From: Chitinophagaceae bacterium
GTDB lineage: Bacteria > Bacteroidota > Bacteroidia > Chitinophagales > Chitinophagaceae
Direction of reading: 5' to 3'
DNA: 36,628 nt
Assembly: GCA_027484165.1 (NCBI GenBank)
Contig: JAIXWH010000081.1
Coordinates: 1 to 36,628 of the forward strand
The notes beneath the pieces are model-generated. The model made no database searches and was not told where the DNA came from. It saw only the letters and a program-made list of their open reading frames with translations. Below, one piece after another: positions 3,477-36,628 of this stretch. A program made the position numbers and the translations under genes. Each line of letters starts with the position of its first letter. Position 1 is the stretch's first letter.

Positions 3477-4340
3477 TTATGCAAATATTTCTGATGCCAA
3501 TGAAATGCATTGACTGAGTGCCTCTTGATTGATTTCAAAAATTAAACCTTTATTATTCAAATAGGGTAACATCAATTCCGTATTCATATTGCCAACTAAA
3601 TCATTTCCTGCCATTGGACAACCACCAATTCCTTTTAATGCGCCATCTACTCTTAAACAACCTGCATCTAAAGCTGCATCCAGCTTTCCTTTCCAATTAT
3701 CCGCTGTAGAATGTAAATGAACACCGATTTCTATTTGAGGCAATGAATTGATCATTTGCTGAGATAATGAACCCACCTGAATCGAAGATGCTAGTCCAAC
3801 TGTATCAGCAAGCGATATTGTCTTAATTTCCAATGCTCCTATTTTATGTGCCCATTCTAAAACGATTTCTTCATGGTAAGGGTCTCCATATGGATTTCCA
3901 AATCCCATTGAAATATACACTACCAGTTCTTTTTTATATTTGATGCACAAATCCTGTATATGCTTGAGTTGTTCATAAGCATCTTCAATTGAAGCATTGG
4001 TATTTCTCTGCTGAAAAGTTTCTGAAACTGAAAATGGGAAACCGAGATACTTGATTTGTTCATAGTGAATCGCTTCTTCTGCTCCTCTTATATTCGCAAT
4101 AATTGCAAGTAACTTAGATACTGATTTATCAAGAATCAACTTTTTTAAAACTTCTTTAGTGTCAGCCATTTGCGGAATAGCTTTCGGCGAAACAAAGCTT
4201 CCAAAATCGATAGTATCGAATCCAACCTGTAATAAGCTGTTAATATATTCTATTTTCTTTTCGGTAGGTATAAAATGAGACCACCCCTGCATGGCATCAC
4301 GTGGGCATTCTATTAATTTTATTTTATTTTGATTGTTCAT
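3477..4340 (-). CDS. hydroxymethylglutaryl-CoA lyase
   Basis: This TIM-barrel enzyme of the HMGL/DRE family cleaves HMG-CoA to acetoacetate and acetyl-CoA in leucine breakdown. ECPRDAMQGW (D15) corresponds to the metal-binding strand-1 motif, VHLHSTADNW (H208, H210) supplies the metal-binding histidines, and GIGGCP carries the expected catalytic cysteine. The tail of that loop (AGNDLVGNMNTE) differs from the best-studied mitochondrial and Pseudomonas enzymes but fits versions seen in Bacteroidota. At 287 residues the length is normal. It is followed nine bases later by the GSCFA gene. An HMGL-like aldolase with another acyl-CoA substrate cannot be excluded. Confidence 0.85.
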   Translation of the reverse strand: MNNQNKIKLIECPRDAMQGWSHFIPTEKKIEYINSLLQVGFDTIDFGSFVSPKAIPQMADTKEVLKKLILDKSVSKLLAIIANIRGAEEAIHYEQIKYLGFPFSVSETFQQRNTNASIEDAYEQLKHIQDLCIKYKKELVVYISMGFGNPYGDPYHEEIVLEWAHKIGALEIKTISLADTVGLASSIQVGSLSQQMINSLPQIEIGVHLHSTADNWKGKLDAALDAGCLRVDGALKGIGGCPMAGNDLVGNMNTELMLPYLNNKGLIFEINQEALSQCISLASEIFA

Positions 4341-4394: not shown

Positions 4395-4449
4395 CAATCA
4401 ACCAATCAACCTCTTGAACGTTTTGAACCTACCAAACCTCTTAAACCTT
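4395..4449 (-). repeat. 9-bp-periodic intergenic repeat, copy A
   Basis: Directly after rlmB, overlapping its stop codon, the minus strand reads as a degenerate 9-bp periodic repeat (GGTTTAAGA, GGTTTGGTA, GGTTCAAAA, CGTTCAAGA, then GGTTGATTG twice). The 16-mer AAGGTTTAAGAGGTTT (plus-strand 4434-4449) occurs again exactly at 35156-35171, in a second array with the same period. The array lies in the gap before the HMG-CoA lyase gene. Confidence 0.7.
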
Positions 4450-5215
4450 ACTCCCCCCTCTGCCTCAATGCTTCATATAAAATAACTCCAGTAGCCACCG
4501 ATACATTCAATGATTCAAAATCACCCGGCATCGGAATTTTCACTTTCTCATCGCAAATTTTCATCAATGCAGGATATATCCCATGCTCTTCACCTCCCAT
4601 CACAATAGCACAGGGCTCTGTGAAATCTACTTCTTTAATTAATTTTTCTGCAGTCATCTCAGTTGCAATCACTTTAATTCCATTCAAATGCATTTCATCA
4701 ATCGCTTTCATCAAACTATTTACTCTGCAAACTGCAATTTTCTCTAAAGCCCCTGCAGAGGTTAAGATAGCATCTTCATTTAATGACCCTACACCTTTAT
4801 CGGGAATGATTATTGCCTGAACTCCAAAGCTATAAGCACTTCTTGCGATGGCTCCTATATTTCTAATATCAGTAACTCCATCTAAAATTACAAACAATGG
4901 AACATTTCCATTTTCAACAACAAATGAAATGATCTGTTGCAAATCCTGATATTGAATTTTTGAAATCTGCGCAATACAACCCTCATGATTACTCACATTA
5001 AAGCTATTCAGTTTTTCAACCGGCACTTTATTGATAGGAACTAATTCAGTTGCAGCAAGATTTTTGATTTCATCTATAACCGGACCATGAACATTGGATT
5101 GCAAATAAATACGTTCCAACTGCTTTCTTTCTTTGAGCGCCTTTATAATAGCTTCACGGCCAATGACCAGCGTATTTTTTTTGGGGCGTTGATGTTGATG
5201 TCTAAAATTTTTCAC
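4448..5215 (-). CDS. rlmB: 23S rRNA (guanosine-2251-2'-O)-methyltransferase RlmB
   Basis: This SpoU/TrmH-family methyltransferase modifies G2251 in the peptidyl-transferase P loop of 23S rRNA. A short basic leader precedes the substrate-binding domain (LVIGREAIIKALKERKQLERIYL). The trefoil-knot SPOUT domain shows motif 1 (LDGVTDIRNIGAIARSAYSFG), motif 2 (CAIVMGGEEHGI) and motif 3 (IPMPGDFESLNVSVATGVIL). The 255-residue length is normal. The start is GTG at 5215; an ATG two bases upstream is out of frame and hits a stop at once. A nearby TrmH-family enzyme acting on tRNA is the main alternative. Confidence 0.88.
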   Translation of the reverse strand: MKNFRHQHQRPKKNTLVIGREAIIKALKERKQLERIYLQSNVHGPVIDEIKNLAATELVPINKVPVEKLNSFNVSNHEGCIAQISKIQYQDLQQIISFVVENGNVPLFVILDGVTDIRNIGAIARSAYSFGVQAIIIPDKGVGSLNEDAILTSAGALEKIAVCRVNSLMKAIDEMHLNGIKVIATEMTAEKLIKEVDFTEPCAIVMGGEEHGIYPALMKICDEKVKIPMPGDFESLNVSVATGVILYEALRQRGE

Positions 5216-32853: not shown

Positions 32854-34356
32854 ATGTCTCAAATCAGAAAAAGAAGCCTTGTAGCTACGAGTTGGATATA
32901 TATCGGCTTTTTTATCGGAGCAATAAATACCTATTTCCTTACCCATAAATCATGGTTCAGTACAGACCAAAATGGACTAACCAGGACTATGATAGAAACT
33001 AGCCAGTTGATTTTTGCATTTTCTGCTTTAGGAACGCCCAATTTTTTATATAAATTCTTCCCCTATTACAAAGACAACCTCCCTCACAAGAAAAATGATT
33101 TACTGGGTGTAGCATTGATTATTTCAATAATAGGTTTTATTTTAACCTGTTTGGGTCTTCTCTTACTTCAACCCCTAATTATAAAAAAATTCAGTACTAA
33201 TTCCATTCTGTTTGTTCAATACTTCTATTGGATATTACCCTTGTCATTTTTTGTATTGCTATACAACATCCTTGAAGCTTATTCTATGGGGTTTGAAAAA
33301 GGTGTATTGACTAATCTGCTGAAAGAAACGGTTGTTAGATTTTTTACTTTATGTGTGATTGTCCTCAAAGTATTTGATGTTATAGATTTCAACACATTCA
33401 TCATTTTATTTTCGTTTCAATATTCCATTATTGTTTTAATATTAGCATTACACCTTCATCATAATAAACAACTTTGGATTAGTTTCAAAATTAGCAGAGT
33501 CACGAAAAAATTCAGAAAAAAAATATTTGCAATAATTTCTTTGACTTTCATAGTTATAATAGTTGGTGTATTAAGGCAAAGTATTGACGGACTTGTATTA
33601 GCAGCCAAACAAAATTTAGGAAAAGTGGGAATTTTCGGATTGGCAACTTATATGGTATCTATGTTGCAGGCACCATTAAGAAGTATCATTACTATAACTA
33701 TTCCTATTTTGTCAAGAGCCTGGAAAAACAAAGACATGGTAGAGATTGACAGAATTTATAAAAGAAGTTCAATTAATCTTTTAAGTTTTTCTTTATTTGC
33801 ATTTTTCTGCATCTGGATGAATTATAATGATGCTATTTATTATTTCAATATCAATCAAGACTATCTTCAAGGAAAAAATGTTTTTTTAATATTAGGGATG
33901 GTTACCATTATTGAAATGGGTACAGGTGTAAATGGGCAAATCATTGCCACTTCTACTTATTGGAGATTTGAGCTTTGGACAAGCTTATTATTGACTGTGC
34001 TAATTATTCCATTGAGCTATGTACTTACCGTCAAATATGGCATCATTGGACCTGCTATTGCTAATTTAGTTTCATTCAGTATTTATAATTTGGTGAGATT
34101 TTGGTTTCTATATAAAAAGTTCAATTTACAACCCTTTAGCATCAAAACGTTTGAAATTTTAATCATCTCATTGACTGCGTATTTTATTTCCTATTTCTCT
34201 TTCTCCAATTTCCATGGTTTATGGGCAATGATTGGTCGCAGTATATTATTTATTATGCTTTTCATAGCAGCGATATACAAACGAAATATCTCACCTGATT
34301 TTTTACCAATAATTGAAACGGTATTAAATAAAATCGGAATTAAAAAGAAAGATTAA
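32854..34356 (+). CDS. Wzx-type oligosaccharide flippase
   Basis: The 500-residue polytopic membrane protein has about 14 predicted hydrophobic helices and the opening ATSWIYIGFFIGAINTYFLTHKSWF typical of the polysaccharide biosynthesis (PST/MATE-like) family. It would flip undecaprenyl-linked oligosaccharides to the periplasm for polymerisation or ligation. An internal region, FGLATYMVSMLQAPLRSIITITIPILSRAWKNKD, resembles the helix 7-8 segment of this family. No Wzy polymerase is recognisable in the window; YfhO is the only other large polytopic protein. Its stop overlaps that of the convergent mqnA gene by four bases. Confidence 0.85.
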   Translation: MSQIRKRSLVATSWIYIGFFIGAINTYFLTHKSWFSTDQNGLTRTMIETSQLIFAFSALGTPNFLYKFFPYYKDNLPHKKNDLLGVALIISIIGFILTCLGLLLLQPLIIKKFSTNSILFVQYFYWILPLSFFVLLYNILEAYSMGFEKGVLTNLLKETVVRFFTLCVIVLKVFDVIDFNTFIILFSFQYSIIVLILALHLHHNKQLWISFKISRVTKKFRKKIFAIISLTFIVIIVGVLRQSIDGLVLAAKQNLGKVGIFGLATYMVSMLQAPLRSIITITIPILSRAWKNKDMVEIDRIYKRSSINLLSFSLFAFFCIWMNYNDAIYYFNINQDYLQGKNVFLILGMVTIIEMGTGVNGQIIATSTYWRFELWTSLLLTVLIIPLSYVLTVKYGIIGPAIANLVSFSIYNLVRFWFLYKKFNLQPFSIKTFEILIISLTAYFISYFSFSNFHGLWAMIGRSILFIMLFIAAIYKRNISPDFLPIIETVLNKIGIKKKD

Positions 34357-35096
34357 AACTTTGTAGCTTTTTCCAAAAACAAATCCATTGCAGTTCTTTT
34401 TGAAAAATTGAGTTCATAAGAAATATTATGCTCATAATATTTCAATAAATCATATTCTTCATATGGAATGGCAGCAGCAATTTCACTTTTATGAGCTAGC
34501 CCTTCCAATGTAGCTTCATTGAATCTTTTAATAAATACATCCGAAACCTGTTTATTTGAAACCCATGCAGCAAATACAAATGGAAGCCCTGTCATCTCTT
34601 TCCATGCCAAACCCAAATCAAAGTGAAATTTTGATTTTTTTCTTTGAACAAAAGCACGATCGCCAATAACTAGCCCAGCGGTAGTTCCATTAATTTCAGA
34701 CTCGTAGCCACTCTCAGCAATGATAATTTTAGGGGTAATTTTCCAATGTTCATTCAAAAGTATCTGTAGTAAAATTACTGAAGTCCTGCTTTGATAATCC
34801 ATAAGAATAGATTCGATATTATGGAGTGAAACATCACTGAATAAGCATACACTTGCTACTTCCCCTTCAGTACTAATACAAAAATCAGAGACAATATAAT
34901 GTTCTTTCAAATGGGGAATGGCGGCAACTGGAACAAGACCAATATCTATTTCATCATTCAATAATTGAGCAGCAACTTTTGACGGAAAATCAAAACTTAA
35001 GTCAATAGCATCATGCATCATCCCCTTTTCAAACCCATAAACTAGAGGTTTAGCATTTAAATAACTAACAGCACCTACTCTGATTTTTCTATTCAC
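34353..35096 (-). CDS. mqnA: chorismate dehydratase MqnA
   Basis: MqnA starts the futalosine route to menaquinone by dehydrating chorismate to 3-enolpyruvylbenzoate. The protein has a periplasmic-binding-like fold with the hallmark IRVGAVSYLNAKPLVYG, LNDEIDIGLVPVAAIP, GYESEINGTTAGLVIGDRAF and LPFVFAAWV. The frame runs upstream to a TTG at 35117, but the GTG at 35096 puts MNRKIRVG at the N-terminus as usual for the family. It also avoids a start inside the -7 box, so it is preferred (247 residues). Other menaquinone genes are not in the window. It converges on wzx and is divergent from purB. Confidence 0.93.
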   Translation of the reverse strand: MNRKIRVGAVSYLNAKPLVYGFEKGMMHDAIDLSFDFPSKVAAQLLNDEIDIGLVPVAAIPHLKEHYIVSDFCISTEGEVASVCLFSDVSLHNIESILMDYQSRTSVILLQILLNEHWKITPKIIIAESGYESEINGTTAGLVIGDRAFVQRKKSKFHFDLGLAWKEMTGLPFVFAAWVSNKQVSDVFIKRFNEATLEGLAHKSEIAAAIPYEEYDLLKYYEHNISYELNFSKRTAMDLFLEKATKF

Positions 35097-35114
35097 AGCT
35101 TTCAAATTGAGAGG

Positions 35115-35122
35115 CAAAATTA
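35115..35122 (-). promoter_or_regulatory. -7 box for mqnA
   Basis: On the minus strand TAATTTTG followed by CC matches TAnnTTTG and ends 18 bases before the GTG at 35096, a normal distance. It overlaps the alternative TTG start (35117-35115), which argues for the shorter reading. No TTTG is evident at -33. Confidence 0.5.
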
Positions 35123-35147
35123 CCTATTTATTTTTCATTTATAGTGA

Positions 35148-35272
35148 ATGTTTAAAAGGTTTAAGAGGTTTCAGAGGTTCAAAAGGTTCAAAAGGTTCAA
35201 AAGATTAAATAGGATAGAACTCATCGAAATCTTTCAATGTAATCTGTTGAACTTACTAAACATATTGAACTT
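35148..35272. repeat. 9-bp-periodic intergenic repeat, copy B, with inverted arm
   Basis: Between mqnA and purB the plus strand carries consecutive 9-bp units (GGTTTAAGA, GGTTTCAGA, then GGTTCAAAA three times). After about 35 bases, a second array of units (CTGTTGAAC, TTACTAAAC, ATATTGAAC) is an imperfect reverse complement of the first: the 32-base arms 35175-35206 and 35241-35272 match at 24 positions. The region could fold as a long hairpin. The 16-mer at 35156-35171 is identical (opposite strand) to copy A after rlmB. Confidence 0.75.
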
Positions 35273-35331
35273 AATGATCCTATGCATCTCCAAATTATCA
35301 AATCTTCAATTCAACCAATCAACTAACTCCT

Positions 35332-35339
35332 TAAATTTG
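35332..35339 (+). promoter_or_regulatory. -7 box just before purB
   Basis: TAAATTTG followed by C matches the consensus exactly and ends four bases before the purB ATG, leaving essentially no leader. No TTTG or TTG lies at the usual -33 distance, so it could be a chance match. Confidence 0.35.
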
Positions 35340-35343
35340 CAAA

Positions 35344-36628
35344 ATGAACCATTTATCACTCCTTTCCATTTCTCCAATTGATGGCAGATACATCAATGCT
35401 ACAAAAGAATTATCTGATTACTTTTCAGAGTATGCTTTAATCAAATACAGGTACAAAGTAGAAGTTGAATACTTTATCTTTTTAGCTGAAAAGAAATTTT
35501 TTAAATTGAAATCTTCAGAAACCGAAAAACTGAGACAAAGTGTAAGCGATTTTTCAATTGCAGATGCTCAGGAAATAAAAGACACCGAAAAGATTACCAA
35601 TCATGATGTTAAAGCAGTTGAATATTTTTTGAAGAAAAAAGCGGATGAAATAGGAATAGGTCAATTCAAAGAGTGGGTTCATTTTGGATTAACCTCTCAA
35701 GACATCAATAATACTTCCATTCCACTTTTATGGAAAGATGCGATAGAACTTGAATATCTTCCTGCAATAATAAATTTACAACATCATATTCATCAACTTG
35801 CCCAACAATGGAAAGATATACCCATGCTCGCCAGAACTCACGGACAGCCTGCATCTCCTACAAGACTTGGAAAAGAACTGATGGTTTTTGTTGAACGCAT
35901 TGAAAACCAAATTCAATTATTCAGTTACATTCCTTTCTCTGGAAAATTTGGAGGAGCTACCGGTAATTTTAATGCACACCATGTTGCTTATCCAAAGTAC
36001 AACTGGATTAAATTTGGGAATGAATTTTTAGAAGAAAAATTAGGAATAGAGCGTCAGCAATACACCACTCAAATTGAGCATTATGATACATTGGCTTCTC
36101 AATTTGACAACATCAAACGCATCAATACCATATTGATAGATTTTGCAAGAGACATTTGGAGTTACATCAGTGTGGATTATTTTAAACAAAAGACAAAAAA
36201 AGGCGAAGTGGGCAGCAGTGCTATGCCTCATAAAGTAAATCCTATTGATTTTGAAAATGCTGAAGGCAATCTAGGAATGGCTAACGCTGTATTTGAGCAT
36301 TTATCTGGCAAACTTCCCATATCCAGACTACAACGAGATTTAACGGATAGTACCGTTTTAAGAAATATTGGAGTTCCAATGGGACATACCATCATTGCCA
36401 TAAAATCAATGGAAAAAGGATTAGGCAAATTGATTTTAAATGAATCAAAACTTAAAGCTGATCTGGAATCCAATTGGGCCGTTGTTGCAGAAGCTATCCA
36501 AACTATTTTAAGAAGAGAAAACTACCCTGCCCCTTACGAGGCATTAAAAGAACTTACAAGAGGGACTGTGATTGACAAAAAAGCCATTCATCAATTTATC
36601 TCCAAACTTAAAGTTTCAAAGGCAACTA
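35344..36628 (+). CDS. purB: adenylosuccinate lyase, 3' end beyond window
   Basis: PurB cleaves SAICAR to AICAR and adenylosuccinate to AMP in purine synthesis. From the ATG at 35344 the frame is open to the right edge (428 codons of an expected 450 or so). It begins SLLSISPIDGRY, as in the E. coli-type (longer) PurB. The catalytic His166 lies in ARTHGQPASPT. The signature loop GSSAMPHKVNPIDFENAEGN (about 290-309) carries the catalytic serine. LQRDLTDSTVLRNIG follows. The start is fixed by the family N-terminus; there is no alternative start close downstream. Confidence 0.96.
   Translation, partial: MNHLSLLSISPIDGRYINATKELSDYFSEYALIKYRYKVEVEYFIFLAEKKFFKLKSSETEKLRQSVSDFSIADAQEIKDTEKITNHDVKAVEYFLKKKADEIGIGQFKEWVHFGLTSQDINNTSIPLLWKDAIELEYLPAIINLQHHIHQLAQQWKDIPMLARTHGQPASPTRLGKELMVFVERIENQIQLFSYIPFSGKFGGATGNFNAHHVAYPKYNWIKFGNEFLEEKLGIERQQYTTQIEHYDTLASQFDNIKRINTILIDFARDIWSYISVDYFKQKTKKGEVGSSAMPHKVNPIDFENAEGNLGMANAVFEHLSGKLPISRLQRDLTDSTVLRNIGVPMGHTIIAIKSMEKGLGKLILNESKLKADLESNWAVVAEAIQTILRRENYPAPYEALKELTRGTVIDKKAIHQFISKLKVSKAT

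Follow-up and report, generated by a model that had tools for sequence, protein, structure and literature searches.

A family of 8- and 9-bp repeat arrays follows a stop-codon strand rule in a Chitinophagaceae genome

The STRR repeats of cyanobacteria are degenerate arrays of short units that lie between genes. A more regular kind was described by Rehm et al. (2015; PMC4692102), who reported arrays of the heptamers GGGNATC and GGGGA(C/T)T in Xanthomonas and Nostoc. According to the parts of that paper compared here, these arrays are dispersed, variable, mostly non-coding and seldom found between divergent genes. Heptamers that follow a gene lie on its coding strand, close to the stop codon or across it, and those that precede a gene lie on the non-coding strand; inverted repeats are mentioned, and G-quadruplexes were proposed to form. 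TAACTGA direct repeats, as portrayed in a portion of the work of MacGregor (2015; PMC4679880), occur in the Beggiatoaceae, in some Cyanobacteria and in five Bacteroidetes, and their seven-base unit is found just before start codons in the main species. Furthermore, the pertinent sections of PMC12306157 describe REP elements with RAYT transposases as intergenic and hairpin-capable, with some copies near stop codons. In the literature we recognised no description of the 8- and 9-bp units reported here, and six unit strings of 16-18 bases were absent from the papers checked.

The window analysed in this work is a stretch of 36,628 nt, contig 24 of the 158 contigs in the 2.5-Mb host assembly, and holds two arrays, A and B (Table 1). 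Among named records, those that best match the encoded mqnA protein are assemblies of Ferruginibacter and other Chitinophagaceae, which makes the host a probable member of this family. The original prediction had described them as two related 9-bp arrays on opposite strands that share a 16-mer, and this description holds. The 16-mer AAGGTTTAAGAGGTTT lies at 35156-35171 on the plus strand and at 4434-4449 on the minus strand, and a pattern of two units plus GGTT, with up to three mismatches allowed, matched nine times in the window, whereas 100 shuffles averaged 0.06 matches. The 12-mer CAACCAATCAAC, which had also been placed in both regions, occurs twice in the window, at 35312-35323 and at 4399-4410, the latter one base off the previously given 4400-4411. 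It corresponds to the 8-bp unit GGTTGATT on the opposite strand and, taken by itself, is only modestly above chance (two copies vs a mean of 0.24, with as many in 3 of 100 shuffles).

Table 1 Arrays, genes and promoter-like boxes in the 36,628-nt window
Feature	Position	Strand	Remarks
Array A, 9-bp part	4408-4448 (about)	minus	starts directly after the rlmB stop codon (distance 0)
Array A, 8-bp part, 2x GGTTGATT	4396-4411	minus	follows the 9-bp part, orientation unchanged
Array B, left arm, 9-bp units (unit 1 = TGTTTAAAA)	35149-35206	plus	
Array B, left arm, three perfect GGTTCAAAA units	35176-35202	plus	
Array B, right arm, degenerate, with some three 9-bp units	35240-35275	minus	orientation opposite to the left arm, with which it pairs in the predicted fold
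8-bp companion array AGTTGATTGGTTGA	35309-35324	minus	purB end of the array B gap
rlmB, SpoU-type 23S rRNA methyltransferase	4448-5215	minus	TIGR00186 above cut-off
HMG-CoA-lyase-like gene	3477-4340	minus	downstream of array A; PF00682; NF004283 below its cut-off
mqnA-like menaquinone biosynthesis gene	34353-35117	minus	PF02621; no NCBIfam match
purB, adenylosuccinate lyase	35344-36628	plus	divergent from mqnA; runs off the window end
Promoter-like box TAATTTTG	35115-35122	minus	mqnA side, outside array B
Promoter-like box TAAATTTG	35332-35339	plus	4 nt before the purB ATG

An inverted arm at 35241-35272 had been predicted as well. This arm is real and takes part in the predicted fold, but it is degenerate: the array B gap contains no exact 9-base inverted match, and the mismatch pattern used for arm-finding missed it. 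In the 134-nt stretch 35145-35278, the two array B arms are paired in the fold with z-scores of -2.55 on the plus and -3.33 on the minus strand, while the array B gap as a whole reaches a fold z of only -1.47. Array A runs in one orientation only and is without a fold (z 0.19). At Rfam gathering scores, the window yielded a single tRNA only, and the arrays matched no curated RNA family. Judging from the sequence, the in-frame GTG at 35096 is the likelier start of the mqnA-like gene over the TTG at 35117, which lies inside a promoter-like box. This box and the one on the purB side resemble the Bacteroidota -7 promoter box TAnnTTTG, and since the latter stands so close to the ATG (35332-35346), the purB mRNA may be leaderless. 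By eye, a similar box is visible ahead of purB in some relatives.

Arrays A and B are ordinary members of a family rather than a special pair. That they belong to a dispersed, genome-wide element and not to a gene had been put forward, together with the reservation that further copies should exist and exceed the shuffled level. Such copies are indeed present: in the whole host genome the exact 9-bp pattern gave six matches vs none for the reversed pattern, and with up to three mismatches 237 matches vs 15 for the reversed control (overlapping matches counted separately, about 6% being expected from the reversed control). The 8-bp companion pattern gave 65 matches vs one in its control. Moreover, 43 of 50 host arms lie within called gaps, which make up about 7% of the sequence read. 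The 9-bp unit follows the consensus gGTTnAAnA with a core of GTT, A and A conserved in three genomes; its second G and two Ts are kept at 0.86-0.98 in the three genomes and its first G less well, at 0.68, 0.61 and 0.49. The commonest number of units in host arms is five, where detection needs about 2.5 units. GGTTCAA may bear a resemblance to a tRNA T-arm. The host gaps also contain other intergenic simple-repeat modules, namely TTTGTTG runs and CTTTGTGTCTTTGCGG runs, which are sometimes nested within arms. A masked comparison of 184 host gaps, made in search of a non-repetitive core, had among the matches listed further modules of simple repeats, stretches rich in A and T and matches resembling tRNA.

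Beyond the host, exact matches occurred in 8 of 59 genomes near it, all eight being of the same genus (host included), and within this genus their occurrence is patchy. A sample at the family level yielded exact two-unit matches in 17 of 294 genomes and 11 of 101 genera, again with the host genus included. In a four-protein tree of 24 genomes, in which several nodes are weakly supported and G030 with its 14 matches was left out, the genomes with at least five exact matches fall, with gaps, in one part of the genus, and two genomes with one exact match each are placed elsewhere.

The arrays hold a defined position relative to genes. This was followed in 431,913 bases of the host (window included), 278,025 bases of G012 and 118,000 bases of G011, in which gene calls came from a simple longest-ORF script with a lower limit of 90 aa rather than from a gene finder (60 aa for the orthologue terminator test, the composite-repeat copies and the core counts) and arms were found with mismatch patterns. 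Of the gaps in three genomes, 19 of 57 convergent ones contained arrays, compared with 37 of 289 tandem and 5 of 112 divergent ones. Where a 9-bp arm had a stop codon upstream in sense, its start fell between -20 and +19 of this stop in 52 of 78 cases; the set covers six genomes, was deduplicated by the first 30 bases of the arm, and assigns to another gene any arm whose start lies more than 18 bases within a gene. Some arrays overlap or even supply the stop codon. Array A, which begins at the rlmB stop codon, is typical of the family, and array B is unusual as one of the few in divergent gaps.

Furthermore, the arrays obey a strand rule. In the strand counts, for which the closely related G005/G011 and G017/G030 were entered as separate genomes, so that some events are counted twice, opposite arms no more than 200 bp apart ran GGTT then AACC in 17 of 17 cases in the host genome and in 32 of 32 over six genomes, and a reversed order (AACC then GGTT) was absent from the 40 two-arm elements collected. 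In tandem gaps with at least two arms, GGTT came first on the coding strand in 15 of 15. Of 29 lone arrays (those in gaps with one orientation only) nearest to a stop codon, 26 had GGTT on the coding strand; nearest to a start codon, 9 of 17 pointed inward, in which no rule is apparent. Base-composition skew was rejected as the cause of the strand rule, since array-free gaps are only slightly skewed.

The same gap may carry an array in one species and lack it in another. For 55 orthologous gene pairs of the host and G012, an array was present in both in two cases, in the host only in two, in G012 only in two and in neither in 49. Inspection by eye of the rlmB 3' end at 30 loci including the host revealed the 9-bp array in four and a different 7-bp array in one. 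In G059, the place of array A at the rlmB stop codon is taken by a perfect array of twelve TCAGTAG heptamers. In G011, the 9-bp array downstream of rlmB has the palindrome-like CCCTGCCTACCGGCAGGCAGGG in its right arm, a sequence absent from G005. The gap between mqnA and purB spans 226 bp in the host and at most 30 bp in 22 of the 26 relatives with adjacent purB (29 loci), and is thereby about 200 bp longer in the host than in most relatives. As read by eye, two relatives carry other G/T-rich repeats in this gap, and upstream of mqnA in G071, at the orthologue of the array B gap, we observed a perfect GGGTTTAA array of at least 12 units, inside which the contig ends.

Convergent gaps likewise differ in length with and without arrays (gene names in this comparison come from reading translations). 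They measure 170, 134 and 45 bp with arrays vs a median of 33 bp (n=23) without at glnS, 99 and 101 bp vs 38 bp (n=9) at the nitronate-monooxygenase-like gene, and 81, 186 and 232 bp vs 41.5 bp (n=12) at the Fe-S protein gene. Unit numbers also vary. Downstream of one stop codon, four sister genomes show clearly different numbers of units by eye, and between G105 and G201, both of another genus, one arm differs by a single 9-bp unit and the other by 10 bp. One element shared by G005 and G011 is nearly unchanged, with one substitution and one single-base indel over about 320 aligned bases; conservation specific to this element was rejected, as the high identity continues into the neighbouring gene.

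Because the arrays come and go between related species, we regard them as tolerated repeat DNA rather than as a proven regulator. The reading that we prefer, and to which we give about an even chance, is that they are lineage-specific, changeable minisatellites at gene ends, mostly repeat DNA that is tolerated without a required function. Short seeds of gGTTnAAnA (9 bp) or GGTTGATT (8 bp) would lie where the DNA is under little constraint, just past a stop codon, and would expand and contract by whole units, probably through replication slippage, filling the gap up to the coding boundary. The G/T-rich strand is the coding strand behind the stop, for which a transcription-linked bias may be the source, and a second array across the gap faces the first, so that the gap could form a long, loose hairpin for which no function would be required. 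In a sister lineage, an array is also part of a larger interspersed repeat at many places.

Slippage had been named in the original prediction as one possible origin of the arrays. The unit difference between G105 and G201 and the varying unit numbers in the four sister genomes agree with it, but neutral slippage on its own accounts neither for the strand rule nor for the recurrence of one unit family at scattered loci and in several genera. Three further observations count against the minisatellite reading. The 10-bp difference between G105 and G201 is not a whole unit and speaks against a purely unit-wise change. The near-identical G005/G011 element speaks against turnover, although this point is weakened by the identity extending into the neighbouring gene. 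Finally, a shortage of terminators in array gaps, described below, would fit a substituted function.

Such a function is at the heart of an alternative that we consider possible but rather unlikely, in which the facing arrays are functional 3'-end elements whose GGUU/AACC hairpin ends or protects mRNA in both directions and replaces canonical terminators. The invariable facing order, the GGTT-first order in tandem gaps, the enrichment in convergent over divergent gaps and the folding of the arm-to-arm stretch of array B are all consistent with this. So is the distribution of canonical terminators, scored as a GC-rich stem followed by a U tract with a purpose-written script rather than a published predictor. 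In convergent gaps of 60-350 bp these were found in 4 of 23 with arms vs 14 of 26 without (p 0.016), and in tandem gaps in 3 of 40 with arms vs 42 of 160 without (p 0.01). The deficit in arm gaps persisted over four parameter sets (p 0.039 to 0.00045), and an earlier count in three genomes had given 2/18 vs 14/22 for convergent and 2/33 vs 40/146 for tandem gaps (with vs without arms). The arm gaps themselves thus rarely take the intrinsic-terminator form of a GC-rich stem followed by a U tract.

This shortage could mean either that arrays replace terminators or that arrays grow in gaps free of terminators. At three loci, orthologous array-free convergent gaps contained a terminator in only 3 of 44 cases, which is a weak test because 31 of the 44 gaps are shorter than 60 bp; among those of at least 60 bp, the count was 2 of 13. 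Weak as it is, the test leans towards arrays occupying terminator-free gaps rather than replacing terminators. Moreover, at one locus in G017, G030, G069 and G075 an array stands beside a terminator-like hairpin, as judged by eye, so that the two occur together.

Folding also argues against the 3'-end element. Compared with shuffled sequences, convergent gaps with two arms have a median z of -2.80 (n=11) vs -3.58 (n=18) for arm-free gaps, and tandem gaps a median z of -0.91 (n=14) with two arms vs -1.42 (n=130) without. Exceptional folding of array gaps was therefore rejected, as two-arm gaps fold less well than arm-free gaps. Compensatory evolution of the arms was rejected too: in 40 two-arm elements (26 from the host and 14 from relatives, including one orthologous pair), arms paired slightly worse with their own partners than with foreign ones (p 0.97), and no arm-to-arm covariation was found. 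The arrays are poorly conserved at orthologous gaps, and neither example from the window suits the hairpin well, array A being of a single orientation without a fold and array B lying between divergent genes in a gap of unremarkable fold. A structural or regulatory role had been suggested from the outset. The strand rule and the few canonical terminators fit such a role at 3' ends, but poor conservation, missing arm covariation and ordinary fold stability leave it unproven.

Less probable still, and in our judgement improbable, is that the arrays belong to, or are left over from, a non-autonomous mobile repeat of the MITE or REP type with the 9-bp arms as its ends. What speaks for it comes mainly from G017, G030, G069 and G075, where an array is part of a composite interspersed repeat of about 120-230 bp that recurs at many places. 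The composite has a 9-bp array at its front, a non-repetitive core GGTTGGAAGCATTTTCCAATTATTAGCATCTTTG (GGTTGGAAGCATTTTCCA...), CTTCGTGCCTTTGCGTCTTTGTG repeats and AATGCTGCAAGCATT, with CTTTGTG-type repeats after the core, and the copies compared are about 75-94% identical. Allowing up to two mismatches, the core was matched 13, 7, 7 and 2 times in the stretches of these four genomes examined, many loci having been chosen for matching; of the 28 core copies whose upstream gene boundary is known, 22 come after a stop codon, where again most loci had been chosen for matching. The additional length of the host mqnA/purB gap counts in favour of this reading as well. However, the core was absent from 603,654 host bases (overlapping loci counted repeatedly) and from the stretches of G012, G011 and G005 examined.

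A link to RAYT and REP systems was likewise rejected. The sole Y1-transposase (RAYT-like) gene found in the host, on contig 124 at about 45847-46191, is followed by a different, REP-like unit, TAGAATAGTGTCATCCCTACGGGATTTTT, present there in nine direct and three inverted copies, and none of the 3,345 bases examined around this gene contained GGTT arms. Nor do the arms share a fixed palindromic sequence of 20-40 bp of the kind expected of REP elements; they vary in unit order, number and gap.

It is in our view highly unlikely that an RNA- or DNA-binding protein recognises the 9-bp unit on one strand and has the arrays as its sites; the conserved core of the unit and the exact two-unit matches in 11 of the sampled genera would agree with this, but presence is not conserved at orthologous gaps and is patchy within the genus. 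G-quadruplexes, finally, are extremely improbable here even though the strand and position rule is nearly that of the GGGNATC arrays for which they were proposed (in the parts of PMC4692102 compared) and 20 of 50 host arms have at least four GG tracts, because only 49-68% of units retain the first G, a lower share than for the second G and the Ts, and four tracts are reached in only 16 of 43 G012 and 1 of 11 G011 arms. The strand rule seems to be independent of quadruplexes.

Returning to the gene-end minisatellites, a broader proposal, which we advance with reserve as an unlikely one, is that facing 8/9-bp arrays constitute a second, repeat-built gene-end signal. A gene lacking a terminator would acquire a GGUU array at its stop codon, paired arrays would act as a bidirectional 3'-end hairpin, and together with the arrays of Xanthomonas and Nostoc they would exemplify a general strand rule that is independent of quadruplexes. 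The stop-codon strand rule had been reported from two other phyla, for heptamers that form quadruplexes, and is met again here with an 8/9-bp unit unrelated to them; this recurrence points to a general cause, either transcription-linked growth or use at mRNA ends, over quadruplexes. A ready test set exists in sister species that differ in whether a given gap carries an array. If the arrays are neutral, they caution against taking every hairpin-like repeat at a gene end for a terminator.

How do these arrays compare with the systems described so far? The STRR repeats of cyanobacteria differ in both unit and host. With REP elements, as far as the sections of PMC12306157 considered here describe them, the host arrays share an intergenic location, the capacity to form hairpins and the proximity of some copies to stop codons, but their arms consist of tandem units and have neither a fixed palindromic core nor a link to a Y1 transposase. 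The TAACTGA arrays, in the portion of PMC4679880 compared, are similarly patchy, intergenic and built from a short unit, and some Bacteroidetes gaps that carry them are longer than in array-free relatives; their unit has seven bases and is start-proximal in the main species, and facing pairs are absent from that portion, whereas the host arrays have units of 8/9 bp and are stop-proximal. Differences from the Xanthomonas and Nostoc arrays, as these are presented in the parts of PMC4692102 compared, concern the unit, which has 8/9 bp, no GGG tract and a poorly kept first G instead of 7 bp, the number of units, for which the host shows no preference for four unlike the heptamers, and the phylum. 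Lone host arrays nearest to starts show no clear strand rule (9/17), in contrast to the non-coding strand of the upstream heptamer arrays, although tandem gaps with at least two arms keep the facing order (15/15), and convergent gaps are the richest for the host family. Both kinds of array, however, are in excess between genes, rare in divergent gaps and positioned close to stop codons with the unit on the coding strand. To the extent that this source allows the comparison, the arrays of Xanthomonas and Nostoc are thus the nearest published likeness, with a strand rule nearly the same as the one described here.
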